This document shows positions 12,253 through 30,907 of a stretch of 33,288 nt of DNA, one piece after another. The stretch covers positions 1 to 33,288 of the IMG/VR virus record IMGVR_UViG_3300023229_000919; one strand, 5' to 3'. A model generated the notes under the pieces. It had not been told where the DNA came from. It ran no database searches and worked only from the letters and a program-made list of their open reading frames with translations. This stretch comes from a virus. How positions within the stretch are numbered: position 1 is the stretch's first letter; the number at the start of each line of letters is the position of its first letter. The position numbers and the translations under genes are program-made.

Positions 12253-13695
12253 CTATTCAAATAATGAGCTAAAATTGTTCGTGCCTTTACCACCGCCTGT
12301 GGCTCTGGCCCAACGAGTGCCTCGAATATCTGCTAGAAAACTTGATGCACCGTTGATAACTTCCATGGGTTTTTCACTGGTGAACACTTCTTCTACCAAT
12401 GTGTTGAAATACAGTATGTTTCTTGGAACATATGTGCTGTGTTCGTCTGTGGTGTCTGATGTTTTGGTCTTTCTCCAGTGTTTAACTTGTGGCCGATGTA
12501 CCACACTTTCAATATCGTTCATGTCATTAGCAACCTGTACAGCTCGTATCTGATTGTACACGTTATGAGCCATCATTAAACAATAACTAAAAGAATCCCA
12601 CGCAGTAGCACCTTCTTTGCCGTTTTTATTTAGGTCACCTTCTCCGTAATAACAAACATCTCCCATTGTTAGTCTGTTACCAATTGCACTCTGGAATGGG
12701 AAAGGTATGTTAGACCCTTTTAATCGTTTGTCATCTGGTGCTTTGTCCATTATAAATGACCATCTAGACGGTGTAAACATATTCTGTGTGTACACTAATC
12801 CGTTGGCTGTGCTTAGAAAAGCAGATGCAGAGTCAAAACTTATTGTAAATTCTGAATTAATATGTTTTCTTACCTGTCTTTGTATCTGTGTTAGATAACA
12901 AGCCCAGTCTAATTGAGATGTACCTAACACGTGCATCCAATTCTTACCGTCTAATTTTTTCTCATCTCTCATTATAATGAGTCTTTTCAGCATCACTTCC
13001 ATGTCACACATATTGATACCGCCCATCGCCCATCCTTCGAACTCGAAATCTTTCACAGCATCGTACCATATCTGTGCAGTGTTCCAATCGTCTCCTTGCA
13101 GTACGTTTAATAGTTTAGTCTGTCCCAGTCTGTTTTTTTGGAAAAACTTGTTGTTGTATAGTGTACCATCCAGTGTGTCTTGAAATGATTTTAATCCTGT
13201 TTTAGGAGAGTTAAGATCATCTGCCGCCCAGGTAGGCACGTCTAAGGTCATGGCCCAATCTGATGTTAGCTCTAGCCAGTTTAAAATGTCGCTTCTAACT
13301 TTGTTTGCTTTGTTACCTTCAAAGTCTTGCCAATCAAATTTAATAACTCCTCTGCCAATTTGGTATCCACCCGAGTCACCTACTATTGTAGAGAACTTCC
13401 TGTCTCTGTTGACCACCATAGAATCTCGATCGTTAACTTTTTCCATATCTAAGCAGGCGTGTCCTGCTGAATACAGTGCTGTAGGATATGTGTACATGCC
13501 TTTTTCAGGATTTAAGAAGTTTAGTCCTTCTACTCCATTTTCAAATCCTTGAGGAATTCTTTCTTTTGGTATGTGAGCACCTTCTGAAACTCTTTGTTTG
13601 CTGATGAATGTGTTATAAAAGTTTGAAATCGCAGGCAGAAACACAGCGAAGTCTCTGCTGAGTGCTCCTAAATGTTCTTGCCTACGATCCGTCAT
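12253..13695 (-). CDS. dpdA: DpdA: TGT-like 7-deazaguanine DNA base-exchange enzyme
   Basis: 480 residues. DpdA is the DNA-acting relative of tRNA-guanine transglycosylase; it replaces guanine in DNA with a 7-deazaguanine base. TGT landmarks appear in order. GDSGGYQ (106-112) matches SDSGGFQ with Asp107. NVLQGDD (197-203) matches the VQGG strand. GWAMGG (221-226) matches AIGG. HVLGTS (255-260) matches the LMGVG loop. ISFDSAS (285-291) places Asp288 where TGT has its catalytic Asp. The C-terminal zinc site of bacterial TGT is absent, as expected for phage DpdA. It starts in a TAATG overlap with the sliding-clamp stop, so it is made with the replisome clamp. Confidence 0.85.
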   Translation of the reverse strand: MTDRRQEHLGALSRDFAVFLPAISNFYNTFISKQRVSEGAHIPKERIPQGFENGVEGLNFLNPEKGMYTYPTALYSAGHACLDMEKVNDRDSMVVNRDRKFSTIVGDSGGYQIGRGVIKFDWQDFEGNKANKVRSDILNWLELTSDWAMTLDVPTWAADDLNSPKTGLKSFQDTLDGTLYNNKFFQKNRLGQTKLLNVLQGDDWNTAQIWYDAVKDFEFEGWAMGGINMCDMEVMLKRLIIMRDEKKLDGKNWMHVLGTSQLDWACYLTQIQRQVRKHINSEFTISFDSASAFLSTANGLVYTQNMFTPSRWSFIMDKAPDDKRLKGSNIPFPFQSAIGNRLTMGDVCYYGEGDLNKNGKEGATAWDSFSYCLMMAHNVYNQIRAVQVANDMNDIESVVHRPQVKHWRKTKTSDTTDEHSTYVPRNILYFNTLVEEVFTSEKPMEVINGASSFLADIRGTRWARATGGGKGTNNFSSLFE

Positions 13696-18569: not shown

Positions 18570-18962
18570 TTACTTCTTTGTCTTTACGTTCTTGGCCTTG
18601 CCACGTCTGTTCTTGCTTGGATCCTGCCTGCGTTTTCTTGAAGCCGCGGATTTCCTACCTTTTTTGCCCAATGCGTATGCTTTTGATCTTGGTAAACATT
18701 TAGGCTTGCCTTCCTTGCCGGAACCTCTTGCACAGTCTCCTCTGATTTTACCATCTGGACCAAAACGCACCCACTTGTCTTTGAACCATTTTTTCAAGTC
18801 TTCGTTCAGTGATTCTGTGAAAACCAATCCGCCACAGTTCACACAGAAGTCTACGTCTTCTCGCTTGACGCAGTTGGGAACACGTTTTCCAAACATGGTC
18901 TTCATGCCCTTCTTCTCGTAGCCCTTCCAACATTTCTCTGTTATTACGTCTGTGATTCTCAT
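18570..18962 (-). CDS. Basic Cys-containing protein with capsid-type leader (DUF5872-like)
   Basis: 130 residues. It begins MRITDVITEKCWKGYEKKGM, where MRITDVITE resembles the T4 internal-protein targeting leader and ITE would be a prohead-protease site. The rest holds CWKGYEKKGMKTMFGKRVPN, a CVNCGG pair, a WFKDKWVRFG segment followed by CARGSGKEGKPKCLPRSKA, and a Lys/Arg-rich tail. I recall these modules from marine T4-like phages; the second looks like DUF5872. The strongly basic, Cys-paired composition suggests a DNA-associated virion protein. It ends just before the dsbA promoter, so it is the last gene of the late block. Confidence 0.75.
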   Translation of the reverse strand: MRITDVITEKCWKGYEKKGMKTMFGKRVPNCVKREDVDFCVNCGGLVFTESLNEDLKKWFKDKWVRFGPDGKIRGDCARGSGKEGKPKCLPRSKAYALGKKGRKSAASRKRRQDPSKNRRGKAKNVKTKK

Positions 18963-19195
18963 TTCTTTTTCCTACCTGCACAATGGGCCTTCTGTGAGAA
19001 CCCTTTGGGATTTGAACAGTTGATTGATTTCTTGTATTTATTGCTCCATTTTTCTTCTTTGACCCTGAAAGGATAGGCCATCGAAGAGTGGTATCCCATC
19101 CTGGCGGAACCTTTGGCTCTTTTCTCTACTTTCTTTAGATTTTTTCCTACGTCTGGATGCACGTATCTGGTTGCTAGTATCTCGTGTATCTTCAT
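18959..19195 (-). CDS. Small basic Cys protein with capsid-type leader
   Basis: 78 residues from the ATG at 19193-19195, which shares bases with the stop of the upstream gene (ATGA). A longer frame from 19216 is less likely. It starts MKIHEILATRYVHPDVGKNL. It ends with SINCSNPKGFSQKAHCAGRK followed by two Lys, a Cys-paired basic module I recall from marine phages. The leader matches the M[KR]I-x-E pattern shared by neighbouring genes, with IHE at residues 3-5 as the only possible I-x-E site. No enzymatic motif is visible. Confidence 0.75.
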   Translation of the reverse strand: MKIHEILATRYVHPDVGKNLKKVEKRAKGSARMGYHSSMAYPFRVKEEKWSNKYKKSINCSNPKGFSQKAHCAGRKKK

Positions 19196-19377
19196 CACTT
19201 GCTCTTGTTGCCCCAATTGGCCGCACCTTTTTTACGACACTGCACCAGGGCACCGGAGGCATAGGCACTGGGCCATACTTTGTATCTTGATTTTACTTTG
19301 TGATAGCAGGCATCTTTCTTCTCTGCCAGCTGTTCAAACTGTTCTTCGGTGATTGCGGTGACTTCGTTGATTTTCAT
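19195..19377 (-). CDS. Small Cys-paired protein (DUF6321-like) with capsid-type leader
   Basis: 60 residues. It starts MKINEVTAITEEQFEQLAEK, with ITE at residues 9-11 as a candidate cleavage site. The remainder, DACYHKVKSRYKVWPSAYAS then GALVQCRKKGAANWGNKSK, is a compact basic module I recall as DUF6321 in phages. A Shine-Dalgarno (AAGGTAG) lies upstream, and a late promoter AATAAATA is 16 nt before the ATG, inside the 3' end of the homing endonuclease gene. Function unknown. Confidence 0.75.
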   Translation of the reverse strand: MKINEVTAITEEQFEQLAEKKDACYHKVKSRYKVWPSAYASGALVQCRKKGAANWGNKSK

Positions 19378-20000
19378 ACTGCTACCTTGTATGTATTTAT
19401 TTGTTCTACCAGGAAGCCTTTGAGCTTGCCTCTTTTGATATGTTTTCCTATACTTGTCTTCCAGTGAAGCGTATTATAGTTCCAGTTTTTTTTCTTACAA
19501 ATCTCTTTAAACTCTAAGCCATTTACAATGTACTCTTCGCCTTCACTTGTAGTAATACGATATATATATTGTTCGCTACGCACACGAGAACTTTTAGATC
19601 CACCTTTGACATGCCATTCTTTAGATTTACCTGTAAAGTTCTTAGCATATTGTTGCCCTGCTTTGCGTTGATGTTCTATAAATGCATCATAGTCATATTC
19701 TTTCAATCCGTGTAAATAGTGCTTGCCGCCGTATGTGTTATTATAAGACATAGGATCTTTAACTACATTTTTGTTGACTATTTTTTTTTCTAGATTCCAT
19801 AATGCATCTGCACTATCTGCGGTTGCAATAATTTCTTTAGTAAAGTTTTCTGCACCATACTTTTTAATAGCGTTCATGATACCTATACCACTACCCATAT
19901 AGGAATCGTTTACATTTTTAGTAGCATGTCTGCCAATGTAATATTTTCCATTTATATGGTTAGTTATTTTATAGATAGTATAATGCATTACGTAACGCAT
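19374..20000 (-). CDS. GIY-YIG homing endonuclease (free-standing)
   Basis: 208 residues from the ATG at 20000, which overlaps the upstream stop (TAATG); a start at 19988 is possible. The catalytic module is YTIYKITNHINGKYYIGRHA (the GIY-YIG strands appear as TIY...YYIG), with ALWNLEKKIVNK giving the family Glu. The middle and C-terminal parts are basic and probably bind DNA, with a helix-turn-helix-like region near GLEFKEICKKKNWNYNTLHW. Its last codons contain the late promoter of the next gene. A near-palindrome lies at its 5' end (19981-20002). It is a selfish mobile gene inserted between two virion-type genes. Confidence 0.88.
   Translation of the reverse strand: MRYVMHYTIYKITNHINGKYYIGRHATKNVNDSYMGSGIGIMNAIKKYGAENFTKEIIATADSADALWNLEKKIVNKNVVKDPMSYNNTYGGKHYLHGLKEYDYDAFIEHQRKAGQQYAKNFTGKSKEWHVKGGSKSSRVRSEQYIYRITTSEGEEYIVNGLEFKEICKKKNWNYNTLHWKTSIGKHIKRGKLKGFLVEQINTYKVAV
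19394..19401 (-). promoter_or_regulatory. T4-type late promoter
   Basis: AATAAATA on the minus strand, 16 nt before ATG 19377 and inside the homing endonuclease coding sequence. Its longer spacing leaves room for the AAGGTAG ribosome-binding site. Confidence 0.55.
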
Positions 20001-20002
20001 TA
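19981..20002. repeat. Near-palindrome at homing endonuclease 5' end
   Basis: Twenty of 22 positions (11 bp arms, one mismatched pair) are self-complementary: TAATGCATTACGT followed by AACGCATTA. It includes the TAATG stop/start overlap. It could be coincidence, an operator, or a trace of insertion. Confidence 0.4.
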
Positions 20003-20575
20003 CCAAGCCTTACAACTCCAATATCGTGCTGTGGTTTTGTCCTTGGCTGTGTCGCACTTGTGTCGAGCTCGGAAAGATTTTCTTGCTTTTGGATTGCTCT
20101 TCCTGATCTTCATGGTCTTCTGTCCTAATTTTTTAGCACTTGTCCCACCGTGTCCGAAATTTACTTTCTTGACATTGCCTGTTTTAGGATTCTTGACGTA
20201 CACTTTGAATTTTTTAACATCACCACGCATGGGTTTGTTCAGTGGCACTGTTCTGCCCTGGTACTTGGCTTCAAACCAGTTCCTTGCTCCCTCGTGGAAC
20301 TGTTCTGGTATCCGCCTCTGTAGCCATGATTCAAACACTTCCGCCATGCTCTGGTCATCCACGGCATTTGGTTGGGCAGGCGTGGGACGACCTTGTTCGC
20401 TCTCCCCCATCATGTGTACGGGGTCTTTGATAAATTGTTTGGTTCTTCTTAGTCCCCTGGAACCTGCTGACTGTGGAGCTTCTGCTTGGCGATTGGCCCC
20501 GATGGTACCGGTCTGTTTCATGCGACTGATATCGTCTAGATACTGCTTGTATGAAAAAATAGGCATTTGGCTCAT
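20000..20575 (-). CDS. Conserved phage protein with basic Cys-paired C-terminal module
   Basis: 191 residues. The N-terminus MSQMPIFSYKQYLDDISRMK is helical and differs from the capsid-type leaders of its neighbours. The C-terminal 80 residues contain FKVYVKNPKTGNVKKVNFG, then KSNPKARKSFRARHKCD and TTARYWSCKAW. I recall this widespread phage module, ending in ARYWSC-W, as conserved but without function. The central part is polar and probably disordered. A late promoter AATAAATA lies eight bases before the ATG. Confidence 0.8.
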   Translation of the reverse strand: MSQMPIFSYKQYLDDISRMKQTGTIGANRQAEAPQSAGSRGLRRTKQFIKDPVHMMGESEQGRPTPAQPNAVDDQSMAEVFESWLQRRIPEQFHEGARNWFEAKYQGRTVPLNKPMRGDVKKFKVYVKNPKTGNVKKVNFGHGGTSAKKLGQKTMKIRKSNPKARKSFRARHKCDTAKDKTTARYWSCKAW

Positions 20576-20582
20576 TGTACGA

Positions 20583-21197
20583 CTATTTATTTAAAAATTC
20601 TTTGACGTTGGATTCTAATTCACTCAATGCCTGCGACAATCTTGGCTGTTCCGCATACGAGTTGTCTATTTTAAACAAACGACCACCAAACAACTGTTCA
20701 AATCTGGGCACATTTGCCTTCACTGTGCCGAAGTTGCTCATCAGCACTTTCTCTGGTATGCTTCTTTCACGCTTTCGATTACGTTCGATGGAAGTTTCGA
20801 TGTCGGCATCCACGTAGATCATCGCAGTCTCGTAGCCCTGTGCTTCCAGTTCCTTTTTGGTATCAGACACTCGATCGTAGGACCTGCCAGTGGTGTCAAT
20901 CATCATGCCCAGGTTTCCCTGCTGATACATCTGTTGCTGTTTGCCTGTGATCTGTTTGCTTCGTTGCCTTTCGATCTCCCTGGGTGTCTCTTCTTCTGGG
21001 GGCATTTTGAGACTCAAGTTTCGATTGCGTAGCAGATGTTTGAATGCGGCATCAGGATTGACCTGTTTCAGTCCGTAGAACACAGAGGCCAACTGTCGAG
21101 CTATGAATGTTTTACCTGCCCCGGGCACGCCCGCGAAGAATATGGCCTTGTTCTGATAAGGGTCAAAACGACCTTCTATGATCTCTGTGATACGCAT
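20583..21197 (-). CDS. P-loop kinase (zeta-toxin/polynucleotide-kinase-like) with capsid-type leader
   Basis: 204 residues. After MRITEIIEGRFDPYQNK comes the Walker A loop FFAGVPGAGKT (Gly23-Thr30). Other features are VNPDAAFKHLL, GMMIDTTGRSYD and the RNRKRERSIPEKVL lid-type segment with VDADIETSIERN before it. This arrangement is typical of small P-loop kinases such as zeta toxins and polynucleotide kinases; substrate unknown. IIE at residues 6-8 would be a prohead-protease site just before the kinase domain, leaving the catalytic part intact. If so, the enzyme would be packaged and injected. Confidence 0.82.
   Translation of the reverse strand: MRITEIIEGRFDPYQNKAIFFAGVPGAGKTFIARQLASVFYGLKQVNPDAAFKHLLRNRNLSLKMPPEEETPREIERQRSKQITGKQQQMYQQGNLGMMIDTTGRSYDRVSDTKKELEAQGYETAMIYVDADIETSIERNRKRERSIPEKVLMSNFGTVKANVPRFEQLFGGRLFKIDNSYAEQPRLSQALSELESNVKEFLNK
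20584..20591 (-). promoter_or_regulatory. T4-type late promoter
   Basis: AATAAATA on the minus strand, eight bases before ATG 20575, overlapping the stop codon of the kinase gene. Confidence 0.65.
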
Positions 21198-21204
21198 ATA
21201 CTAG

Positions 21205-21212
21205 TATTTATT
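21205..21212 (-). promoter_or_regulatory. T4-type late promoter
   Basis: AATAAATA on the minus strand, seven bases before ATG 21197 of the kinase gene, overlapping the stop of the small upstream gene. Confidence 0.65.
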
Positions 21213-21378
21213 TTATACCAAGTATGTGTGCCAACTGGGCACCACTGGTCTCTTCCGGTGTCTGCACGTGATCTCTTTTTAAACCGTAACCTGTGCCTGC
21301 GCCTTTGTGGTGTATTTTTGGATTGAATGTTGTTTTTTCTGTGCGTGGTCTTTTATTTGTTTTGCGTTTTTTCTTCAA
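21208..21378 (-). CDS. Small basic protein (56 aa), TTG start
   Basis: A frame opened by TTG at 21376-21378 after an in-frame TAG encodes 56 residues ending at 21208. It starts KKKRKTNKRPRTEKTTFNPK after the initiator and continues IHHKGAGTGYGLKRDHVQTP then EETSGAQLAHILGIK. It is strongly basic at the N-terminus. No strong Shine-Dalgarno is seen (GAGA at a poor distance), so the start is uncertain. The stop overlaps the late promoter of the kinase gene. The frame fills what would otherwise be a 225-base gap in a very compact genome, which is the main support. Function unknown. Confidence 0.5.
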   Translation of the reverse strand: MKKKRKTNKRPRTEKTTFNPKIHHKGAGTGYGLKRDHVQTPEETSGAQLAHILGIK

Positions 21379-21394
21379 TGTTCTCTATTTCTTG

Positions 21395-21412
21395 GTAGAT
21401 ATGATTATCTAC
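21395..21412. other. Short inverted repeat after the acidic-protein gene
   Basis: GTAGATA, loop TGAT, TATCTAC, a perfect 7-bp stem eleven bases after the stop at 21423 (minus direction). The T-run follows it only on the plus strand, so it is not a classical terminator for the minus-strand genes. It could stabilise or process the mRNA end. Confidence 0.35.
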
Positions 21413-21422
21413 TTATTTTTAA

Positions 21423-22574
21423 TTATGACAGCTCGTCAGTGTATGATTTTTCATGATCGTCCACCATGTCACCCAGGTAACCGATGATTTCTTCTTTGGA
21501 TCTTGCAGTGTGAATCACAACAGAATTAACATACGAGTCCGATGGTTCGACATCTACCACGATGCTCCTGCCTTCTTCACCACTTTTTTTCATGATGGTT
21601 CTTTTCACTACTTCGGCATCGGAGTCTGTCACTGGATGCTCTGCGTCGAAGTCACCTTGTAATTGAATGGTGTGTGCTTTGTATTCGTCCTGTCCCTCAT
21701 ATCCAGATGCTTCAACAGTGTCTTCGTTGGCTCTTTTTAAAGCATTGGCCACGCTGGGGTGTTTTGACAATCCTTTTGCAAGTTTTTCAATCACCTCAAC
21801 GGCACCGTCGTAGTTGCCACCCTTGTATTTGGGATCGTTTAAAATGCCAAATGCCTGTTTGATCTGTTGATCAGTGAATTCACCGTTCGAGAGTATGTCG
21901 TATTCTTGGACCACTTCGTCGTTGTTTTCATCTTGTTCTTTGTCTTTTTCAGCAATGATCTCTTGTTCTATTTCTTCAGCGTCTGCTATGATCTCTTTGG
22001 TGTCCTCAGTTTTGACAAGAATGCTTGATGATTCTTCATTGTAAACTGCGTCATGGTCTGAGATAGAGTTGTACAGTTCGACCAATTCTGCCGCTTCTGC
22101 AGTGTTGATATACTCTTTGATATCTTTCGCCAGTACTGCTCGGAATGCATCTGCTTCATAGGTCTGTTCCTCTTTCTGCTCTGCTTTTAATTCTGCCAGT
22201 TTCGTCTCCAACTCTGCAATGGTGTCTAGTCTTTTAGAGTCTTCCGTCACTGCTTTTGTTATTGTGGCTGAAATGGAATCGTCCGCATCTGATTCTCGGA
22301 TGGCCTGTGTGATCATGGATTCCGTGGTTGTCTCATCTCTGGTGATGGATTCGATCAGGGCTTCTGCCTGTTTGGAAACCACAGGTGATGTGTATTCCTT
22401 GATGCCTGCCAGTTTGGCAATGTCTGCCAGTGAAATTTCTTTTTCGTCTAGGATCTTTGGCTCTTGTCTGGCCGCTTCTAGAAGTGAATGTCGTTCTTCT
22501 TCTGGTGTGATGTTACTCATCTCGTTGAGTCTTTTTACAATATCTAACCAGTTGTCTTCGTATTTTTTTGTCAT
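21423..22574 (-). CDS. Large acidic coiled-coil protein, possible prohead-core or virion protein
   Basis: 383 residues, very acidic (dense Glu/Asp), with long helical stretches, for example IAELETKLAELKAEQKEEQT and IEQEIIAEKDKEQDENNDEV. A conserved-looking segment AFGILNDPKYKGGNYDGAVE continues to EKLAKGLSKHPSVANALKRA; I recall this from marine T4-like phages. LADIAKLAGIKEY near the N-terminus resembles another short motif in the gene at 28287. The composition recalls T4 prohead-core or scaffold proteins, but that is inference. Two tandem TATAAATA late promoters precede it, the strongest promoter region in the window, so a structural, abundant product is likely. Confidence 0.72.
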   Translation of the reverse strand: MTKKYEDNWLDIVKRLNEMSNITPEEERHSLLEAARQEPKILDEKEISLADIAKLAGIKEYTSPVVSKQAEALIESITRDETTTESMITQAIRESDADDSISATITKAVTEDSKRLDTIAELETKLAELKAEQKEEQTYEADAFRAVLAKDIKEYINTAEAAELVELYNSISDHDAVYNEESSSILVKTEDTKEIIADAEEIEQEIIAEKDKEQDENNDEVVQEYDILSNGEFTDQQIKQAFGILNDPKYKGGNYDGAVEVIEKLAKGLSKHPSVANALKRANEDTVEASGYEGQDEYKAHTIQLQGDFDAEHPVTDSDAEVVKRTIMKKSGEEGRSIVVDVEPSDSYVNSVVIHTARSKEEIIGYLGDMVDDHEKSYTDELS

Positions 22575-22581
22575 TGTAGAG

Positions 22582-22589
22582 TATTTATA
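22582..22589 (-). promoter_or_regulatory. T4-type late promoter, consensus
   Basis: TATAAATA, exactly the T4 late consensus, on the minus strand seven bases before ATG 22574. Confidence 0.8.
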
Positions 22590-22603
22590 TTTGATTACGC
22601 AGT

Positions 22604-22611
22604 TATTTATA
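22604..22611 (-). promoter_or_regulatory. Second T4-type late promoter upstream of acidic protein
   Basis: A second exact TATAAATA, 22 bases upstream of the first. The pair suggests strong late expression of the gene starting at 22574. Confidence 0.65.
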
Positions 22612-22627
22612 GCAAGGTTTTATGTGT

Positions 22628-24328
22628 TCAGGTTGTTTTGAACTTGTTTGCCCAGCTCTCACCCAGTCGTTTGCCCATCATGTCTGTCAATCGGTTGGTG
22701 TACAGCACTGTGCTGGACTCTTTTGTGGTGATCAACTGTTGTTTCCTACGAATCAGCTCTTTTTGTAGCTCTGGATCCCGGTTGGTGTTGGGATCTCGTG
22801 CCAACATGTCGAGGGCCTTCAACTTGTCTGCATAATCAGAAGAGGGTTTTGCGATCTTGGCCAATACCTTGTTTTTAAATGGTGAGTACTCATTCACTGC
22901 ATCATCATCTTTGGGACCATATCCTGCGGGAGTTGCATCAGTCACTCTGGCATCAGTCTTTTGATCCTGTGCCTGCTTGTCTCTCAGTTTTTTAAACAGA
23001 TCCTGTAGGTGTGGTGGATAATCTTGATCGTCCTTGTCCTCACTCTTGTAACCCGCTGGCATGAAGTTCTTGTATTTGTCCTGCAGGTATTTCACTTGGT
23101 TTAGATCTTTACCTATGTCCAATCTCAATTTGGCACCTTTTAAATCTTTTTGTATCATTGCGACCAACTCGGCGTCTCCCCTCTGTTCCGCAGAGTCCAG
23201 TGCTTGGTTCATGGCCTGTATCGCTGGCACTGAATTGTCGATGGCTTGATTGACGGCACCGATGCCTGCCAGGCTACCAACGATGATGCCTGCCGCGGCC
23301 ATCTTCTGTAGCCATCCTTTGATGTCTTCGTCCAGTATTTGTTCTGACACGTGTCTGGAGTAGGGTGCTTTCGCCGCCACCGCTTTACCGTATCTCAGTT
23401 CCTGTGACCTTGCCAGTTCCCGTGCCGGCCTGTTAAAAAAGTGTGCTCGCTTCTGGAAGTGATGATTGATCTCTTCCGGTGACATGGCGTCTAGTCTTTC
23501 TTTGTCCTTGATCATGCTCGAAGGCATCCTGGATCCTTCTTTCAAACCATCGTAGTTCTTTTTTAGGTATGCCTGTGCCACTCTCTGGTCCGATGACTTG
23601 TGTGCTGAATTGCCATCCTTGTCTAAGACGTCATACACCATCTTGCCATCCTTGCCCTTGTACATCGACACGTACGGTTTGATTGATGCTTCGTTGTTTT
23701 CTTTGACTTCTTTTGCGTATTTCTTTTCCACTTCCTGCACTTTTCTTTTCATGATGTTCAGCATGCCAGGGATGGTCTCAATGTCGTCCATGGTGGTCTC
23801 CGTGGCCAGTATCTGGTCGATGTTTTTTTGCACTATGTCTGCGTGTCGCTGATGTAGGTCACCTAATTGTTCTCTGTATGGATTCAATTTTTGATAGTCT
23901 TCGTAATGATACACAGCGTCCAGCATGTCCACTGCTCTGTTCATCTTGGTCTGCATCCATCCTTCGATGTCATCACCTGGTTGTACCATGGAAGCAATTT
24001 GTAGAGCATACTTGGCAGTTGCGTACAACTGCGATTTGCTCATGTGTCCCTCACCTGCGTCTTCTTTCACGCCCTGCATGGTGCCTGTGCCCTTTGGCAT
24101 TTTACTGATTTCCGTGACTGTTTGACCTTCTATGTAATGTCCAATGGTTGAGATGTAACCTGATGCCAGGTCGATCTTTTTAGCCACCCATGATTCCATC
24201 TCTTGGTCGTTGTTCAGGATGTTGTGAATTTTTATCGCGTACTTGCCTGCCCTTATGGCCTGCTTGATGAACATGCTGGCTTCGTATGTGTCTGGTTGTA
24301 CTGGGGCATTGATCTCTGTGATACGCAT
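22628..24328 (-). CDS. Large virion-type protein with duplicated helical domain and one TM helix
   Basis: 566 residues. It starts MRITEINAPVQPDTYEASMF (leader family; ITE at 3-5). Two similar helical units follow: IRAGKYAIKIHNILNNDQEM with ESWVAKKIDLASGYIS (about 24-60), and AKYALQIASMVQPGDDIEGW with MQTKMNRAVDMLDAVYHYED (about 104-143). The Y-A-x-x-I, W-x-x-x-K, A-x-x-x-x-x-x-x-Y pattern recurs in marine phage virion proteins from memory. A single hydrophobic helix, AAAGIIVGSLAGIGAV, lies near residues 340-360, preceded by ILDE. Overall polar and helical; it may be packaged and inserted in a membrane on injection (inference). A late-type box ACTAAATA lies five bases before the ATG. Confidence 0.78.
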   Translation of the reverse strand: MRITEINAPVQPDTYEASMFIKQAIRAGKYAIKIHNILNNDQEMESWVAKKIDLASGYISTIGHYIEGQTVTEISKMPKGTGTMQGVKEDAGEGHMSKSQLYATAKYALQIASMVQPGDDIEGWMQTKMNRAVDMLDAVYHYEDYQKLNPYREQLGDLHQRHADIVQKNIDQILATETTMDDIETIPGMLNIMKRKVQEVEKKYAKEVKENNEASIKPYVSMYKGKDGKMVYDVLDKDGNSAHKSSDQRVAQAYLKKNYDGLKEGSRMPSSMIKDKERLDAMSPEEINHHFQKRAHFFNRPARELARSQELRYGKAVAAKAPYSRHVSEQILDEDIKGWLQKMAAAGIIVGSLAGIGAVNQAIDNSVPAIQAMNQALDSAEQRGDAELVAMIQKDLKGAKLRLDIGKDLNQVKYLQDKYKNFMPAGYKSEDKDDQDYPPHLQDLFKKLRDKQAQDQKTDARVTDATPAGYGPKDDDAVNEYSPFKNKVLAKIAKPSSDYADKLKALDMLARDPNTNRDPELQKELIRRKQQLITTKESSTVLYTNRLTDMMGKRLGESWANKFKTT

Positions 24329-24333
24329 ATGGA

Positions 24334-24341
24334 TATTTAGT
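24334..24341 (-). promoter_or_regulatory. Late-type promoter (variant)
   Basis: ACTAAATA on the minus strand, five bases before ATG 24328, overlapping the upstream stop codon. It differs from consensus at the second base. Confidence 0.45.
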
Positions 24342-24780
24342 TGAAGCTGACGTGTGTCAATTGGGGATATTTCTGTTTGATCCTGCGAGCGGTCTGATTC
24401 AAATGCATTATGGCCTGATTGAAATAGCCCTCGGGCTTGCCACCATCTATCATTCTAGCACTGCCTGGCTGTTGCGTCACTGTGTCTGGTTCTTCTGCAC
24501 TGGTCTTGCCCACGTGCTTCTGTAACCACTGGGTGGTGATGTTAATGAATTGATCTATTGGCACCGGTGAAGCATCTTCAAAATCTGAATCCATGCCCAG
24601 TGTGTCCAGCACTGCTCTCATGGAAGCATTGGAGAAATACTGTGATTGCACTTCTGCGTCTTTTTCGTAGCCCTTGGGGAAAGTCCATACTTCTCGAGGC
24701 TCACCATTGAAACTAACAGTGTCTCTCATGTAGCCTGTCATGGAGGCACCTTCTTGCATGACCACTTCGTTAATCTTCAT
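24337..24780 (-). CDS. Hypothetical virion-type protein with capsid-type leader
   Basis: 147 residues from the ATG at 24778-24780, preceded by AAGGA at a normal distance; an extended frame from 24810 would overlap the upstream small gene by about 40 bases. It begins MKINEVVMQEGASMTGYMRD, and MQE at 8-10 is a candidate cleavage site. The body is a soluble mixed fold with REVWTFPKGYEKDAEVQSQY and WLQKHVG. I do not recognise it. It overlaps the zinc-ribbon gene by 11 bases. Confidence 0.75.
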   Translation of the reverse strand: MKINEVVMQEGASMTGYMRDTVSFNGEPREVWTFPKGYEKDAEVQSQYFSNASMRAVLDTLGMDSDFEDASPVPIDQFINITTQWLQKHVGKTSAEEPDTVTQQPGSARMIDGGKPEGYFNQAIMHLNQTARRIKQKYPQLTHVSFN

Positions 24781-24928
24781 TGTTACATCCTTTGCATCTG
24801 CAGTGGTCACAGAGTCTCACGTCTTTCATTTCATCCAGGTCCTGTATCAATGGTGCGCCGCAGTGACTGTCGCGACCACAGTTTTGACATTTGACTATCC
24901 ATTCTTTTTTCAACACAAGTGTTCCCAT
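24770..24928 (-). CDS. Small zinc-ribbon-like protein (52 aa)
   Basis: An ATG at 24926-24928, in a TAATG overlap with the upstream stop, opens 52 codons ending at TAA 24770-24772. It starts MGTLVLKKEWIVKCQNCGRD and ends VRLCDHCRCKGCNNED. Cys14, Cys17, Cys23, Cys40, Cys43, Cys45 and Cys48 form a ribbon-like CxxC ... CxxCxCxxC arrangement, so zinc binding is likely. It fills the gap between two virion-type genes exactly and is overlapped at both ends. Function unknown. Confidence 0.75.
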   Translation of the reverse strand: MGTLVLKKEWIVKCQNCGRDSHCGAPLIQDLDEMKDVRLCDHCRCKGCNNED

Positions 24929-25194
24929 TATCTTCTCACCACCCCTGGTCCACCGAACAGGCTGATTCCTGGCAGTGCGTGAGCACCTTTGGCTGTGCCG
25001 TTGGGATTCTTGGGTTGTGTAATTTTTGGCAGTCTAGGGGCCTTGGTTCCAGACACACCTGGTGTGCCTGTGTATGATTTTTTAAATCTGTCTTTGCCTA
25101 TGGCCACCTGGGGATTGGCAATAGAGGCTATGCTACCTGCTGATGTAGCACCTGCTGTTGCTGTTTCACGTATTAGAATTTCGTTGATCTTCAT
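24928..25194 (-). CDS. Small Gly/Pro/Thr-rich protein with capsid-type leader
   Basis: 88 residues from the ATG at 25192-25194; a longer frame from 25227 is unlikely because the late promoter AATAAATA lies eight bases before this ATG. It starts MKINEILIRETATAGATSAG, with IRE at 8-10 as a candidate prohead-protease site. The body is rich in Gly, Pro, Thr, Lys and probably disordered (GKDRFKKSYTGTPGVSGTKA). I recall similar small proteins in marine T4-like phages. After cleavage it would be a short basic internal protein. It overlaps the upstream gene by 29 bases. Confidence 0.75.
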   Translation of the reverse strand: MKINEILIRETATAGATSAGSIASIANPQVAIGKDRFKKSYTGTPGVSGTKAPRLPKITQPKNPNGTAKGAHALPGISLFGGPGVVRR

Positions 25195-25873
25195 GCTGTT
25201 TGTATTTATTGTAGAGATACTGCACATGTCTAAATTTACCTAACGGCCAAATTCCTTTAGAACAATTTCTGATAGCTCGCCAAAATCCCAACTTTTTTTT
25301 CACGGTCAAACGGTAATGACCACTGGAGCCGATCCTATAACCACCAGTGTTAGATTTAAGTTGGATATCTGGAAAATCAGCCTCTGTATCACGTACAAAA
25401 TTTTCAAAAATTCGAGTTCTGTTGTCGTCTGCATAAAAATCCACGATATCACGGTTATATTTCTCCCAATTCTTTCTATTAAATTTAAAATTATTCGTTA
25501 GATTATCAATATTTTCCAATGCTTTTTCAGATGCCAAGTAACACAGTGACAACGTGACGTAGGTGTATCTGCTCATAAACCCGTTGGCATAGTTATTATC
25601 ATCGTTGTGTATCTTTATCACCACATCCAACGAATCCGCACCCGCATCATCAAACTCGATGTATTTTAAAAATGGTGGATTTGTCGTGAAATTTTGTAGC
25701 TGTTTATGAGAACTAGGATCTAATTGATCCGGGTTAACTGTTACCCAATCTCTCTGCGGTGTAGCCTGAGGTATGTCAAACTCGTCCAACAACACATCAT
25801 TCACATACACCCTGCACAGGGGTTCTTTTTTATAGATGTCGCAATGGAATCCTAGCATCAATAACTGTCGCAT
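25166..25873 (-). CDS. Conserved hypothetical virion-type protein
   Basis: 235 residues from the ATG at 25871-25873. The first 110 residues are strand-rich, with CRVYVNDVLLDEFDIPQATP, then YIEFDDAGADSLDVVIKIHN and YVTLSLCYLA. The first part resembles in outline the N-terminus of the gene at 30238 (VAEILIND, IEFEH), suggesting a shared beta-sandwich or carbohydrate-binding-like fold (inference). The C-terminal part is basic with GHYRLTVKKKLGFWRAIRNC. No catalytic motif is recognised. Confidence 0.75.
   Translation of the reverse strand: MRQLLMLGFHCDIYKKEPLCRVYVNDVLLDEFDIPQATPQRDWVTVNPDQLDPSSHKQLQNFTTNPPFLKYIEFDDAGADSLDVVIKIHNDDNNYANGFMSRYTYVTLSLCYLASEKALENIDNLTNNFKFNRKNWEKYNRDIVDFYADDNRTRIFENFVRDTEADFPDIQLKSNTGGYRIGSSGHYRLTVKKKLGFWRAIRNCSKGIWPLGKFRHVQYLYNKYKQHEDQRNSNT
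25203..25210 (-). promoter_or_regulatory. T4-type late promoter
   Basis: AATAAATA on the minus strand, eight bases before ATG 25194, inside the 3' end of the upstream gene. Confidence 0.65.
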
Positions 25874-25885
25874 CAACAGTAATTA

Positions 25886-26488
25886 TTACTTTTTAGAACG
25901 ACCTGACTTCATGTTGGCACACCAGTGATACATTTTAGCCTTCTCGCCTGATGCATTTTTGGCCTTCTTACGCAATGCTGTTACACTTCCTGTACAGCTG
26001 GCACCTGCTCGTTTAACTCTGCCAGGACGACTTTTTCCTTTTTTCTTGCCGTCTGCGAAGTTTTCTAAAAATTCTTTGTATTCCAACTGTAATTTTTTGA
26101 CGTTCTTGTATTCATCACCTGGTTTGACATCTGATGTGGTGTTCTGTTTCGTTATGATGCCCACTCCTGCCGCATCTTCTGGCAGAGGATGACCACCTTC
26201 CATGCAGTCCCATTCAAACTGTGTGAATTTTTTCTTGGGTGTTTCTTTTTTCTTGTTGAACAGTGCCTTGAACCTGTCAGACAGCGTTTTTTTATTAGCT
26301 TCAAAATCAGGATGTGCAGTACCGTATCCTGTTTTACCCACTGTCCTTGGTTGTGGGAAATATTCGTTGGCCCTGTTGTTGCCCTTGTTCTTGAAATCAA
26401 ATCTGTTGTTGGGTCCAGTACCGGGCAGATGTATCAATCCCATGGAGTCAGCAGTACCGGGCATTATAACAAATTCTCGTATTTTCAT
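25886..26488 (-). CDS. Basic protein with Cys-paired C-terminal module and capsid-type leader
   Basis: 200 residues. It begins MKIREFVIMPGTADSMGLIH (leader family, IRE at 3-5). The C-terminus contains GKSRPGRVKRAGASCTGSVT, then KKAKNASGEKAKMYHWCANM and KSGRSKK. From memory this module is highly conserved in marine T4-like phages. The middle is Lys-rich, with KALFNKKKETPKKKFTQFEW. It may bind DNA or act inside the capsid. The start overlaps the FMN reductase stop (ATGA) and has GAGG upstream. Confidence 0.78.
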   Translation of the reverse strand: MKIREFVIMPGTADSMGLIHLPGTGPNNRFDFKNKGNNRANEYFPQPRTVGKTGYGTAHPDFEANKKTLSDRFKALFNKKKETPKKKFTQFEWDCMEGGHPLPEDAAGVGIITKQNTTSDVKPGDEYKNVKKLQLEYKEFLENFADGKKKGKSRPGRVKRAGASCTGSVTALRKKAKNASGEKAKMYHWCANMKSGRSKK

Positions 26489-27066
26489 TTATCCTCGTGG
26501 AACCCGAATTTTGTTGGGTTCCCTGCTTTGACCATGCTTCCATAAACATACATATTGGTGCATAGTTGTTCCACTTGTTTGAGAGTGTCCTCGTCCTGCT
26601 CGACATTTTCCTGTGCCGTGCTTTCAAGATTACATCTAGGTGGTATTGTAAATCCAAAATTATTAGCGAAGCTGAACAGATTACCATGTATGTTCTGGAA
26701 ACCATCACCTCCCCCGGACACTGCAACGCCAAACACTTTGTTGTAGAACGGTCTGAACTTGTTGTCCGTCCCCCACGTATCAATGTAGTCCATTCTTTCT
26801 ACAAGACTCTGGATGTAAGATGAGTGCATGCCCCACCAGATGGGAGTGGCAAACACTATGCCATCGCTTTTCAACATCTCGTTGAGCACTGGTTGTAGGT
26901 CATCGTCGTGCTTGTCCGTGCCACGCACGAAATCCAGCTCATTGAGTGTTGTGATGTTTGAATCCGCTCCAAAACTTTTAAATTTAAGGTTCAGCAATTC
27001 ACATATTTTATATGTGTTGCTTTCTGTGGTTTTCTTGAGACTGCCGTTGATTATTAGTATTTTCAT
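26485..27066 (-). CDS. NAD(P)H-dependent FMN reductase / flavodoxin-like protein
   Basis: 193 residues from the ATG at 27064-27066, which overlaps the Dps stop (TAATG). MKILIINGSLKKTTESNTYK carries the FMN phosphate-binding loop (GSLKKTTESNT) of the FMN reductase family. FATPIWWGMHSSYIQSLVER is the second FMN-contact segment of the same family. The gene is next to dps. A reductase that mobilises iron or handles oxidative stress would suit that partner, but this is inference. No capsid-type leader is seen. Confidence 0.83.
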   Translation of the reverse strand: MKILIINGSLKKTTESNTYKICELLNLKFKSFGADSNITTLNELDFVRGTDKHDDDLQPVLNEMLKSDGIVFATPIWWGMHSSYIQSLVERMDYIDTWGTDNKFRPFYNKVFGVAVSGGGDGFQNIHGNLFSFANNFGFTIPPRCNLESTAQENVEQDEDTLKQVEQLCTNMYVYGSMVKAGNPTKFGFHEDK

Positions 27067-27503
27067 TATTTCAGTGTGCTTGTGAGCATCCACTGATGTT
27101 TGTTGTGAGCATCAATACGACCTGCGATAAAATCACCAAATCCGTGTAGGTGATTGCTTTCTACCAGCATGAATAATTCTGTTAGGCCTGCGATGACTTG
27201 AGAGTTGGATGCAATTAATTTGTTGTACATTTCTTCAGAACCAGGTATTGCGGATTCCTGTTCGATCTGTGATAGATCCATGAATCGGTTGAACACTCCT
27301 GGTGCGAAAGTGTCCAGTGTGCGAAGCTGTTCTGCGAATGTGTCAATGGACGCTTGTACATCTTCATAGATGTCGCCAAACAATTTGTGATCCTGTGCAA
27401 AATGACGACCCGTTATATTCCAATGATAATAGTGCGCCTGCAGATAGAATAGAAATACATCTGCAAATACTTTTTTAGCCTGTAATTTAACTTCTGGGGT
27501 CAT
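27066..27503 (-). CDS. dps: Dps-type ferritin (DNA-protection protein)
   Basis: 145 residues. The intersubunit ferroxidase residues of Dps are all present with E. coli spacing: His27 (HWN), His39, Asp54 and Glu58 (E. coli His51, His63, Asp78, Glu82). HYYHWNITGRHFAQDHKLFG and DVQASIDTFAEQLRTLD match the family. Dps stores iron and consumes peroxide; many bind DNA. The short N-terminus (MTPEVKLQAKK) is not strongly basic, so DNA binding is uncertain. A late promoter CATAAATA lies seven bases before the ATG, so the protein is made with virion proteins, and it could protect or condense DNA. Confidence 0.88.
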   Translation of the reverse strand: MTPEVKLQAKKVFADVFLFYLQAHYYHWNITGRHFAQDHKLFGDIYEDVQASIDTFAEQLRTLDTFAPGVFNRFMDLSQIEQESAIPGSEEMYNKLIASNSQVIAGLTELFMLVESNHLHGFGDFIAGRIDAHNKHQWMLTSTLK

Positions 27504-27509
27504 ACACTG

Positions 27510-28268
27510 TTATTTATGCTTACAGTTTATACCATGCCAACGGCGATAGTTACCTAAAGTAGTAATATAACCACAATATTCGCATTCAGTTTTTCCTTTT
27601 TCCATTGCCTTTAAATATGCTTTTCTTTCTCTAATGTTTGGTTTTCTACCCTTTAAACTGTTTGAAAGGTTATCACAATGTTCTTTACTTCTTATTTTTC
27701 CAGTAAGAGCCTGTGATATTTTTTTTCTATGTTCGTCGCTCATAGGACCTAAAACTTTTCCCAAATTAATCTCTCTTAATTTTTGTTTAGTTTCCTCTGT
27801 GTGAGGTTTACCTGTTCGACCAATCTGACGTCTCGATATTGCTTCACGTTGTTTGAGTGTTCTAACTTTACCTAAATTTTTTCCTTTCATTGATTCAGAA
27901 AGTTTTTTCTTAGATTCTTCGCTCATTGGTTTTCTTTTGATGCCGAGTTTGGCTTTGCTTATTTTTTCTCTAGTTATATTTGATAAAACATTACCTTTTT
28001 TAGCACCAGAACCACCATCACCACCATTTGTTTTATTTCTTAATATACCTGTTCCTAAATCTTTTCTGCCATACCATCTTATTAATCTACGTTCCAACGC
28101 TAATGCTCCAACGGTTGTTAAATTATTTTCTATAATAATCATCCTATCTTTGGTTGGCTTTCCTACCTCGCCTTTAGATTTTGTAAAAATTCTAGAACCC
28201 GATCCTTTACCAATATAGTATGGTGATCCGTCATTTCTTAAATAGGCATAGACATAGTAAATGGTCAT
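27510..28268 (-). CDS. GIY-YIG homing endonuclease with NUMOD3 repeats
   Basis: 252 residues from the ATG at 28266-28268; a GTG at 28283 would add five codons. The GIY-YIG module is IYYVYAYLRNDGSPYYIGKG with ALERRLIRWYG giving the catalytic Glu region. Several NUMOD3-type repeats follow (for example SEESKKKLSESMKGKN, TEETKQKLREINLGK and DEHRKKISQALTGK), each with a short DNA-binding helix. The C-terminal CEYCGYITTLGNYRRWHGIN is a zinc-finger-like end. It lies between a small hypothetical gene and dps, and its last codons hold the late promoter of dps. It is a free-standing mobile endonuclease. Confidence 0.88.
   Translation of the reverse strand: MTIYYVYAYLRNDGSPYYIGKGSGSRIFTKSKGEVGKPTKDRMIIIENNLTTVGALALERRLIRWYGRKDLGTGILRNKTNGGDGGSGAKKGNVLSNITREKISKAKLGIKRKPMSEESKKKLSESMKGKNLGKVRTLKQREAISRRQIGRTGKPHTEETKQKLREINLGKVLGPMSDEHRKKISQALTGKIRSKEHCDNLSNSLKGRKPNIRERKAYLKAMEKGKTECEYCGYITTLGNYRRWHGINCKHK
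27511..27518 (-). promoter_or_regulatory. T4-type late promoter for dps
   Basis: CATAAATA on the minus strand, seven bases before ATG 27503, overlapping the stop codon of the homing endonuclease gene. Confidence 0.65.
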
Positions 28269-28286
28269 ACATTTACTTATCACCAG

Positions 28287-28499
28287 TTAGGTAAAGTTAT
28301 TTTTAGGCATGGGGTTTTCTTTTGTAAGTCCAGGCTGTGCAAACCACAATCGGAACCATTCCGGAGTGCCTGGTTGTATATTATGTTTGCGTTGATACTC
28401 GGCTTTTGCTGTGCCAGTGTGGGATATGTTTTCTCCCATACTAGGTTCTGCGGAATTATTCTGAATCCCTGCTAGTCTTTTTAGATCCTGTATGTCCAC
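28287..28499 (-). CDS. Small conserved phage protein, GTG start
   Basis: 70 residues from a GTG at 28497-28499 with AAGGA six bases upstream. It begins DIQDLKRLAGIQNNSAEPSM after the initiator. The central QPGTPEWFRLWFAQPGLTKE is a segment I recall from marine T4-like phages. The start lies 44 bases inside the upstream gene. Function unknown. Confidence 0.65.
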   Translation of the reverse strand: MDIQDLKRLAGIQNNSAEPSMGENISHTGTAKAEYQRKHNIQPGTPEWFRLWFAQPGLTKENPMPKNNFT

Positions 28500-28725
28500 T
28501 TTGTTCCTTTGCCTGACGCTTGATGTCTGCGTCTGAATATTGTAATTTGTCGCCCATCATGCCACCTGCACCTTTTGCGATTCCTGGTTCTAATTTTTCC
28601 ACTGTACCACCTTTGGCCAGGAATTCAGCCATCTGTTTTTCCAGTTCTACCCTTGCTCGTTGTTTCATCACTCGTTCGTCGTCCATTAATTGTCCATCGT
28701 AATTTCTATTGATATCATTTGGCAT
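28456..28725 (-). CDS. Small polar phage protein
   Basis: 89 residues. The helical segment ERVMKQRARVELEKQMAEFL is followed by KGGTVEKLEPGIAKGAGG and a polar tail with ADIKRQAKEQSGHTGSKKTS. I recall the ELEKQMAEFLAKGG segment from marine T4-like phages but know no function. GGAGAACAGA precedes the ATG. It overlaps the end of the nucleotidyltransferase-HAD gene by 11 bases. Confidence 0.7.
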   Translation of the reverse strand: MPNDINRNYDGQLMDDERVMKQRARVELEKQMAEFLAKGGTVEKLEPGIAKGAGGMMGDKLQYSDADIKRQAKEQSGHTGSKKTSRDSE

Positions 28726-29893
28726 TCTGTTCTCCGTATCGGTTTAACTCTTGTTGTACCTTAATTATACTATCTTTGTTGGCTTGATACAAGACCCCAA
28801 ATCCACCTTTTGCTTCCCATCTCTCGATGTTGACAGGACGATCATCTATCAGTATGTTGGGAGTGCCATCCTTCTGCTTGGCCCATTTTTCCTTGCGACC
28901 TGACACAATAACTTCCTCTGGTCTTTCGATGTTCTTTGCAATCCACACTTTTTTCTGTGCGGCCGAATTTTCGTGGTCACCTATCAGCGGAGAAGTCAGT
29001 ATGGAAAACCGTCCTCCGGTGGCACTTTTGATCAACTGTATCAGTGCATCTGCTGAGGGGAACTTTGGTAGTGTTGAGAAGAAATCTGATCCTGTGATTC
29101 TATCGATCACTTCTTGTTTGAGATCACCGCCGGTTTTCACTGATGTTAGTTCTTTCCAATGATCAACGCCGTACATCTGTTCCACACCGCCAAAGAAGTC
29201 TGCGATCACACCGTCCATGTCCAGATATATTACAGGTTGTTTTTCAGTCATCTCTGCTTCATTATACAACTGTTCGTTGTTGACTGCAACCTTTGTCTGC
29301 ATTCTGTCCTGCAGTGTTTGGTAAATCTTTTGAGAGTTTTCGCCGCCCAACACGATCTTGGAGAATGTTGCAAAGTCTCCATTCGCCACTGCTTCTCTGG
29401 CTTTGGAAGCTGATGCACCTGCCACTCCCGCTTCGTCTGGATCTCTTTCACCAGAACTTACCACATCCACGGAATCAAAATCAAACACCAGATTACCTTT
29501 TTTATCTGTCTGTTTGTTGTATTGGTTTAAAAATTTTTGGAAACTGTCTACTCTGTCAGACCCTGCTATCATGATAACTCGTGTGCGACCCTCGTTCATT
29601 AATTTTTGCAGTGCTTGAACGATGGTGGTCACTGTGGGATCACCAATTTCCACATCCGTGAACTTGCCTGTGCCTCGGATGTAGTCTGCTTTCTCGGAAT
29701 AAGTCAATGGGTCTGTTTTTGAATTCTGTTTGTGAGACAGGAACAGGTAGGGTTTTGCATCATTCTTTTGTGCCACCGACCTTACAGCGTTGATTAATTT
29801 TTCGTGACCTATTGTGGGTGGATTGAAACGACCAAAAGCAAACACTGCTGTGCTGTTGTCGTCTTCTTTAAGAAATAGTTCCTTTAGCAACAT
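28715..29893 (-). CDS. Nucleotidyltransferase-HAD fusion with capsid-type leader
   Basis: 392 residues. It starts MLLKELFLKEDDNSTAVFAF (LKE at 8-10 is a candidate cleavage site). Residues 16-200 form a cytidylyltransferase/NMN adenylyltransferase-like domain: FAFGRFNPPTIGHEKLI gives the (H/T)xGH site, with VIMIAGSDRVDSF and ASASKAREAVANGD toward the end. Residues 220-390 are a HAD phosphatase: YLDMDGVIADF holds Asp225 and Asp227, and NILIDDRPVNIERW the final acidic motif. The pair of activities suggests nucleotide or cofactor (NAD-like) turnover. The fusion in a late, possibly packaged protein is unusual. It overlaps the end of the 118-residue gene upstream. Confidence 0.83.
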   Translation of the reverse strand: MLLKELFLKEDDNSTAVFAFGRFNPPTIGHEKLINAVRSVAQKNDAKPYLFLSHKQNSKTDPLTYSEKADYIRGTGKFTDVEIGDPTVTTIVQALQKLMNEGRTRVIMIAGSDRVDSFQKFLNQYNKQTDKKGNLVFDFDSVDVVSSGERDPDEAGVAGASASKAREAVANGDFATFSKIVLGGENSQKIYQTLQDRMQTKVAVNNEQLYNEAEMTEKQPVIYLDMDGVIADFFGGVEQMYGVDHWKELTSVKTGGDLKQEVIDRITGSDFFSTLPKFPSADALIQLIKSATGGRFSILTSPLIGDHENSAAQKKVWIAKNIERPEEVIVSGRKEKWAKQKDGTPNILIDDRPVNIERWEAKGGFGVLYQANKDSIIKVQQELNRYGEQNAK

Positions 29894-30224
29894 CGTATTC
29901 GCCCTGTTTTAGATTTTCAAATTCTCTGTCTGCAATTATTTCCGCAACACGAACTCTGGTTTCTCGAGGGAACATGTCTTTGACATCTTCTCCCTGTGTG
30001 CCAAATTCTCTCACATACTCCTTGGCCGCATCATCTATGAGATACTGCCATAACTTTTTGGCTTTCTCGTGATCGTATGTGTTCTTTGTGATCTTTCTTC
30101 TTAAATTCTGTATGATGGGCATGAATCTGCGACGATACAGATCTTCGTTGTTCATGATGTATAAATCCAACTCGTTGGTTGCGTTGGAATCTACATTTTC
30201 TCGTATGAATTGATGTGCTCTCAT
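29868..30224 (-). CDS. Conserved helical phage protein with capsid-type leader
   Basis: 118 residues. It starts MRAHQFIRENVDSNATNELD, where IRE at 7-9 resembles the T4 leader MKTYQEFIAE. The rest is helical and charged, with ELDLYIMNNEDLYRRRFMPI, then KAKKLWQYLIDDAAKEYVRE and FPRETRVRVAEIIADREFEN. I recall this pattern in many marine T4-like phage proteins. Function unknown. A late promoter CATAAATA lies only five bases before the ATG. Confidence 0.75.
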   Translation of the reverse strand: MRAHQFIRENVDSNATNELDLYIMNNEDLYRRRFMPIIQNLRRKITKNTYDHEKAKKLWQYLIDDAAKEYVREFGTQGEDVKDMFPRETRVRVAEIIADREFENLKQGEYDVAKGTIS

Positions 30225-30726: not shown

Positions 30727-30907
30727 TGTATGAAAACTCCAGTCCTGCTTTAGTGCCTATGTATGGTCTATTTAAATCAGTACGAGTTAATTCTATGGTC
30801 ATTGTGGTTCCTTGCACTGCCACTTTCATGTACTTGTCTGTGCGACTCAGCACATCTGCTTCTTTGTTCATGCCGTTGTCTATACAGGTTATAATTATTT
30901 GTTCCAA
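30719..30907 (-). CDS. Small conserved phage protein with TTG start
   Basis: 62 residues from TTG at 30905-30907, supported by a full AAGGAGG seven bases upstream. The sequence (after the initiator) EQIIITCIDNGMNKEADVLS then TDKYMKVAVQGTTMTIELTR and DLNRPYIGTKAGLEFSY is strand-rich. The segment near PYIGTKAGLEF is familiar from marine T4-like phages. The start lies inside the subtilase 3' end (13 bases overlap). Function unknown. Confidence 0.7.
   Translation of the reverse strand: MEQIIITCIDNGMNKEADVLSRTDKYMKVAVQGTTMTIELTRTDLNRPYIGTKAGLEFSYND

Follow-up and report, generated by a model that had tools for sequence, protein, structure and literature searches.

Internal proteins IPI-III of phage T4 share a short N-terminal capsid targeting sequence, which is found on unrelated, basic proteins, places hydrophobic residues before the cut, and is removed by the gp21 protease at (L/I)xE (PMC9026906). 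In T4 genetics, targeting was assigned to leader residues 4 and 7, and processing to residues 8 and 10 (PMC9026906). The T4 Alt protein, an ADP-ribosyltransferase that is packaged and injected, has a short propeptide at its N-terminus. In a different phage group, the ejection proteins of phiKZ and SPN3US are head-packaged and processed by the prohead protease, but have longer propeptides and a different site. Here we describe leaders of the T4 kind on ten proteins encoded between positions 18570 and 30224 of IMG/VR record IMGVR_UViG_3300023229_000919, a 33.3-kb virus fragment without head genes, hereafter the window (positions 1 to 33,288).

The window system is classed as a variant of the T4 capsid targeting sequence system. 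It has in common with IPI-III a short leader on unrelated proteins, hydrophobic residues before the cut, the (L/I)xE site, a gp21-type protease, and basic proteins among those tagged. Unlike in IPI-III, a single block encodes some ten different leader-bearing products, enzymes included; the leader is 8-11 aa long with consensus M[KR]I-x-E, and one cargo protein bears a copy of the capsid N-arm. The leaders very probably act as T4-type capsid targeting sequences that are cut by a gp21-type protease, with the cargo delivered along with the DNA. The amphipathic N-terminus of 8-11 residues would bind the prohead core (gp22/gp67/gp68 type), so that the protein is incorporated into the prohead, and cutting after hydrophobic-x-E would release the cargo, in mature form, within the head. 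It would then remain with the DNA and share its delivery, as in T4. Predicted cargo comprises a P-loop kinase, a nucleotidyltransferase-phosphatase, small basic Cys proteins, and a protein that would expose a capsid N-arm after cutting.

Distribution of the leader

Among isolates, the window DNA polymerase is nearest to those of two jumbo myoviruses, Sinorhizobium phage Phosso (50%) and Agrobacterium phage Atu_ph07 (46%), and it has 80-94% in common with many uncultured contigs. At the DNA level, no similarity to the window was found in isolate phages. The phage carrying the tagged block is a large, marine, T4-like phage. Comparisons were made with the long relatives G001 (88.9 kb), G002 (100.7 kb), G003 (138 kb), and G011 (196.6 kb), and with Phosso, Atu_ph07, and cyanophage S-SM1.

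All ten leader-bearing open reading frames (ORFs) lie on the minus strand, and their starts match those quoted in a first-pass annotation made from the sequence alone. As that annotation held, seven leaders have a protease-type site (hydrophobic-x-E) at residues 6-11: [I/L/M/V/F]xE ends at residue 9, 11, 8, 10, 10, 10, and 9 in the proteins at 18570, 19195, 20583, 24337, 24928, 28715, and 29868, respectively. The remaining three (18959, 22628, and 25886) have IxE at residues 3-5 only. For three leaders, which begin at an internal ATG, the longest ORF opens farther upstream (at 19216, 24810, and 25227). Codon and ribosome-binding-site scoring favoured the internal starts, and orthologues of the protein starting at 25194 also use the internal ATG.

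A generic leader pattern, M[KR]-phi-x-[EDQ]-phi (phi, hydrophobic), matched 9 of the 47 window genes, all in the block (9/21 versus 0/26, Fisher P = 2e-4). Column-wise shuffling of residues at window starts produced 1.55 matches on average, and none of 2000 shuffles reached 9. Leaders were found in 7/19 genes of the syntenic block of G001 versus 0/89 elsewhere (P = 2e-6), and in 9/18 block genes of G011 versus 1/201 elsewhere (P = 2e-10). The leader is therefore enriched in related genomes and confined to the block in the window, G001, and G011 (the single outlying G011 gene is considered below) rather than equally frequent on early genes. The block is termed late because the late-promoter-like motif TAAATA favours the block side of the window, occurring at 10/24 genes there versus 2/23 on the replication side.

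The proposed likeness to T4 extended to the register of the leader. A rule derived from T4, with hydrophobics at E-3 and E-2, an acid or Gln at E-4/-5, and E at residues 8-11, matched 6/21 block genes versus 0/26 other window genes, and internal control positions gave at most 2/47. One of the six (25166) lies outside the ten proteins first listed. When nine-residue leaders were aligned on the Glu, hydrophobics fell at the positions of T4 Tyr4, Phe7, and Ile8. Near N-termini, phi-x-E showed no genome-wide enrichment, indicating that the site by itself is not diagnostic, and that the leader pattern is. Orthologues were also found to swap leaders between the window and G001: MKINEVVMQE and MRAQEFIREG (24337), MRITDVITE and MRASEIITE (18570), and MRAHQFIRE and MRASQFISE (29868). 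Judged by these pairs, leaders are interchangeable between orthologous bodies.

Module junctions

Comparison of the cargo sequences revealed several modules that follow a leader in one phage but are embedded in a larger protein elsewhere, starting directly after hydrophobic-x-E in nearly all contexts. The NFADGK module did so in 6/6 contexts. Glu directly preceded the ATAGATSAG module in 15/15 contexts, with a hydrophobic residue at P3 (two before the Glu) in 12/15, against a junction background of 1.85% per position. Atu_ph07 gp53 consists of leader MKWNDLNE, a body, EVTE followed by kinase GVNDKHIFKAIFTAGGPGSGKT, and a final ITE followed by an N-arm copy, TSSAGSTGAGNVATT. The window counterparts of these modules are separate tagged genes, in which MRITEIIE is followed by GRFDPYQNKAIFFAGVPGAGKT (kinase), and MKINEILIRE by TATAGATSAGSIAS. 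Other kinase homologues start with MIPFILKE (HTVC008M) or MKTFAELQE (Melnitz-3), each followed by G. Such alignments suggest that the module junctions mark the cut site. A tblastn search of isolate phages with the 59-aa NFADGK module gave no match.

A hydrophobic module (..EE, then GWKSKxAGxxLAAA..) also recurs after E-type sites in tagged polyproteins (L160:12876-14045, L143:10851-13010, L160:15264-18665, and window 22628-24328), and is possibly a membrane-active segment.

A copy of the capsid N-arm

The 88-aa basic protein at 24928..25194 (-) consists of a leader, a segment that copies the N-arm of mature gp23 (the major capsid protein) together with the protease site, and a basic tail. Its leader, MKINEILIRE (25165..25194, -), ends in the protease-type I-R-E, and the copy follows at 25117..25164 (-) (TATAGATSAGSIASIA compared with QATAGATSAGNVATLN). 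The mature major capsid protein itself starts with the ATAGATSAG module. This is seen in gp23 of Phosso, of Atu_ph07, and of over 50 contigs from the window lineage, in which L-x-E, at the point where the propeptide is expected to end, is followed by xxTAGATSAGNVATLN, allowing for small variations. The lineage propeptide closes with YL[SAMIQ]E, a site of the kind found at the leader ends, and the mature protein aligns to T4 gp23*. In G011, gp23 has KKYLSE, then QATAGATSAGNVATLNRV, and the cargo protein has MKINEIIIRRINNE, then QATAGATAAGNIAALNNP. The module thus corresponds to the N-arm/N-fist of T4 gp23* (PMC9958956), but its carrier is not a capsid fold: it is found either in a small basic protein or as the terminal part of other cargo.

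When whole proteomes were scanned with the lineage arm, each genome tested yielded a single cargo-type protein as its top non-capsid match. Best and next-best non-capsid scores were 72 and 31 in G011, 55 and 27 in the window, 49 and 32 in Atu_ph07, 57 and 34 in S-SM1, and 44 and 25 in G003, with a weak separation in Phosso (38 and 34); the window and G003 were scanned with a lineage arm, not with their own gp23. In orthologues of the 24928 protein, phi-x-E was kept at the junction in 13/13, although the leaders were 8-13 residues long and differed in the residue that follows. The copy appears to be new; no description of it was found in a limited literature search.

It may be that the cargo of T4-like jumbo and marine phages is modular, such that any domain is packaged via a leader or via a polyprotein with hydrophobic-x-E joints, and that one cargo class, once cut, shows a copy of the capsid N-arm that docks into or plugs the lattice of the expanding shell, substituting for a subunit's own arm; we put this forward as a tentative model, with the odds slightly against it. 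The copy may bind the shell, and offers a concrete, testable idea for how cargo is attached to, or modifies, the shell.

Homologues in virions

Published proteomics shows that homologues of the tagged proteins are present in virions. By mass spectrometry (MS), a cytidylyltransferase, T4-GC190, was detected in virions of S-SM1 (PMC3037559), an NMNAT in those of S-SCSM1 (PMC9602691), and cytidylyltransferase ORF154 in those of S-CREM2 (PMC10665884). These three enzymes belong to the domain family of the window protein at 28715-29893, and all carry T4-type leaders, MKKFSAFLNE, MKSFLQFLKE, and MKNFSSFLTE, respectively, each followed by A. The basic Cys (CYHK/CW) modules of the 18570 and 19195 proteins, also borne by cyanophage T4-GC119, recur in the polyproteins S-CREM2 gp160, which is listed in the virion table (PMC10665884), and SSCSM1_29, the record of which is labelled as a virion protein. 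In the cyanophages these modules are joined in one polyprotein, beside terminase in several phages, whereas in the window they occur in separate tagged genes. In their passages on NMNAT, the cyanophage authors consider it possible cargo or a contaminant and do not point to the leader; a packaging leader would explain why NMNAT-like enzymes recur in cyanophage virions. By the same token, a sequence rule could allow packaged proteins to be read straight from the genomes of uncultured T4-like phages, the head contents of which are mostly unknown.

For the window's phage we infer targeting, cutting, packaging, and, by analogy with T4, injection into the host. The strongest alternative is that the leaders direct packaging, but that the cargo serves only structural or DNA-condensing roles and nothing is injected. 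Several cargo proteins are small and basic, the basic Cys proteins likely bind DNA, and some T4 internal proteins aid head assembly (PMC9026906). Tagged enzymes, however, make no obvious structural sense: these are the kinase and the nucleotidyltransferase-phosphatase in the window, and Cu/Zn superoxide dismutase and dCMP deaminase in relatives. We therefore consider packaging without injection unlikely, though it is a serious competitor to delivery with the DNA.

The interpretation of the leaders as packaging tags is supported indirectly, by sequence comparison and by the virion proteomics of homologues, and several points weigh against it. A clear site at residues 6-11 is missing from three of the ten leaders, and the protease gene is absent from the 33-kb window fragment. 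The virion evidence comes from homologues in other phages, and two cyanophage papers state, in their discussion of such enzymes, that they may be co-purified contaminants (PMC10665884, PMC9602691). In Atu_ph07, where 29 proteins of cluster CDS31-76 were found in virions by MS, leaders occur in 14/47 genes of that cluster versus 14/661 elsewhere, a contrast whose p-value is inflated because much of the array is one paralogous family, and for which the MS data were taken at the level of the cluster, not per protein. The Atu_ph07 leader is moreover a variant, M[KR]W..L.E, and the T4-register rule matched nothing in its virion block.

The array in question (39484-50592, L082) consists of about eleven related proteins in tandem, gp53-gp63, mostly with M[KR]W..L.E starts and many with YRGM, within the MS-defined virion cluster. 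It is possibly a family of packaged effectors. Assignment as ADP-ribosyltransferases was not upheld, as YRGM is suggestive only and no Pfam match was found among the members tested. The array resembles the idea of T4 Alt, of which no homologue was seen in the window. In S-SCSM1, the 69-aa, virion-labelled SSCSM1_93 (L179) has a C-terminal end, KKRTFKEFLEYIE, that resembles a targeting leader.

Prohead genes in relatives

Relatives of the window retain the T4 head gene order, portal-gp67-gp68-gp21-gp22-gp23. A gp21-type prohead protease was identified in G002, Phosso, Atu_ph07, and SCTP-2 (Pfam PF03420), and its G011 counterpart was recognised from its position and its strong resemblance to the G002 protein. 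The lone G011 leader outside the block belongs to an 80-aa gene between portal and gp68/gp21/gp22/gp23. By place and size, this gene is taken to encode the gp67-type prohead core protein. The gp67-type gene of G002 and of Atu_ph07 carries a leader of the same type.

These data bear on whether the leaders might instead be docking tags for another phage assembly, such as the tail, a nucleus-like compartment, or RNA polymerase. The leaders do sit on enzymes, and their role in packaging is predicted. Because the leader is also present on gp67, and homologues with T4-type head leaders were found in virions, docking outside the head is improbable; in addition, the sites are of the type at which the capsid protein itself is cleaved.

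Late promoters and leader codons

In many late genes of the lineage (G001, G002, G004, and G011, with 24 genes in G011), TAAATA lies 10-14 nt ahead of the start codon, as at about 21205-21210 (-) in the window, upstream of 20583-21197. In Atu_ph07, Phosso, and S-SM1, its occurrence peaks at 25-39 nt before the start. The exact TATAAATA had only two sites, about chance level; the shorter TAAATA together with its position was informative. Genes with an abutting TAAATA showed weaker Shine-Dalgarno matches. From the motif's abutting the start codon, leaderless late mRNAs are predicted.

The shared start could accordingly be a translation-initiation signal (A-rich codons at the start, or an element downstream of the start that serves leaderless late mRNAs) rather than a protein tag. 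The leaders are indeed A-rich. However, among genes with an abutting promoter, only 3/25 in G011, 4/16 in G001, and 4/8 in the window have the leader, and most G011 leader genes have no abutting promoter. The codons of common residues differ (AAA/AAG, AGA/CGT, ATA/ATC/ATT, GAA/GAG), so that the repeat exists at the level of protein, and the junctions in fused proteins need the reading of a tag plus a site. As leaders do not track abutting late promoters and their codons vary, there is very little to recommend a translation signal. Still less credible is chance combined with common descent of a few duplicated genes with ancestral N-termini: some leaders are nearly identical (MKINE, MRITE), but, as had been claimed, the carriers are unrelated (77 leader proteins form 31 body clusters across the loci studied), orthologues swap leader type, and enrichment occurs in independent contigs.

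Predicted cargo genes and their neighbours

The cargo types agree with those first described, namely an AAA_33/zeta-like kinase, a cytidylyltransferase with NT5C/HAD, and small basic Cys proteins; all genes below are on the minus strand. At 18570..18962, a 130-aa basic Cys protein with net charge of about +25 has MRITDVITE followed by KCWKGY, and homologous modules occur in cyanophage T4-GC119-type polyproteins. The basic Cys protein at 18959..19195 starts MKIHEILATR and has the C-terminal module SINCSNPKGFSQKAHC, while the 60-aa one at 19195..19377 has leader MKINEVTAITE and module CYHKVKSRYKVWPSAYASGALVQC, found in 365 phage records. A leaderless basic protein at 20000..20575 bears a module of the packaged set (RKSFRARHKC...WSCKAW), and is a possible, uncertain cargo.

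The P-loop kinase (20583..21197, leader MRITEIIE) gave a weak zeta-type match in a PDB search. The 566-aa, mostly helical protein at 22628..24328 starts MRITEINAP (G011 orthologue MKIKEFHEPVKPDTYEA); its AlphaFold2 model, made without an alignment, had a mean pLDDT of 41, was uninformative, and was not used. In the 147-aa protein at 24337..24780, the leader is followed by G, as it is in the G001 orthologue. The 200-aa basic protein at 25886..26488 starts MKIREFVIMP and has an internal site, EFLE, followed by NFADGKKKGKSRPGRVK; in G007 the module after this site sits straight behind the leader (MRAKEFVIE, then NFADGK). The cytidylyltransferase/NMNAT-like and 5'-nucleotidase (HAD) fusion at 28715..29893, with homologues in the three virion proteomes, has leader MLLKELFLKE followed by D, and gave no match in a PDB search. 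The 118-aa protein at 29868..30224 has MRAHQFIRE followed by N, and its orthologues have MRASQFISE and MRASEFLNE. None of the ten tagged proteins had a Pfam or PHROG match to the T4 IP or Alt families, no direct comparison of bodies having been made.

Other genes lie within or near the cargo block. A Dps/ferritin-like protein (27066-27503) and an FMN reductase-like protein (26485-27066) lie within it, and G001 has a tagged Cu/Zn superoxide dismutase at the matching place; together these suggest an oxidative-stress theme. A small protein at 28456-28725 has a SutA RNA-polymerase-binding domain (PF20661, E = 2e-8), which is unusual in phage. At 30895-33246 there is a subtilase (Peptidase_S8) with a long C-terminal part that resembles, by eye, an outer-membrane barrel, and the corresponding proteins of G001 and G011 begin like a lipoprotein (LTACGGGG). 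Outside the block, QueE-like, FolE-like, and TGT/DpdA-like genes were recognised by eye at 2602-3495, 3495-3878, 5669-6424, and 12253-13695. The set is consistent with 7-deazaguanine DNA modification, and Phosso, too, has annotated QueE and FolE genes next to its polymerase.

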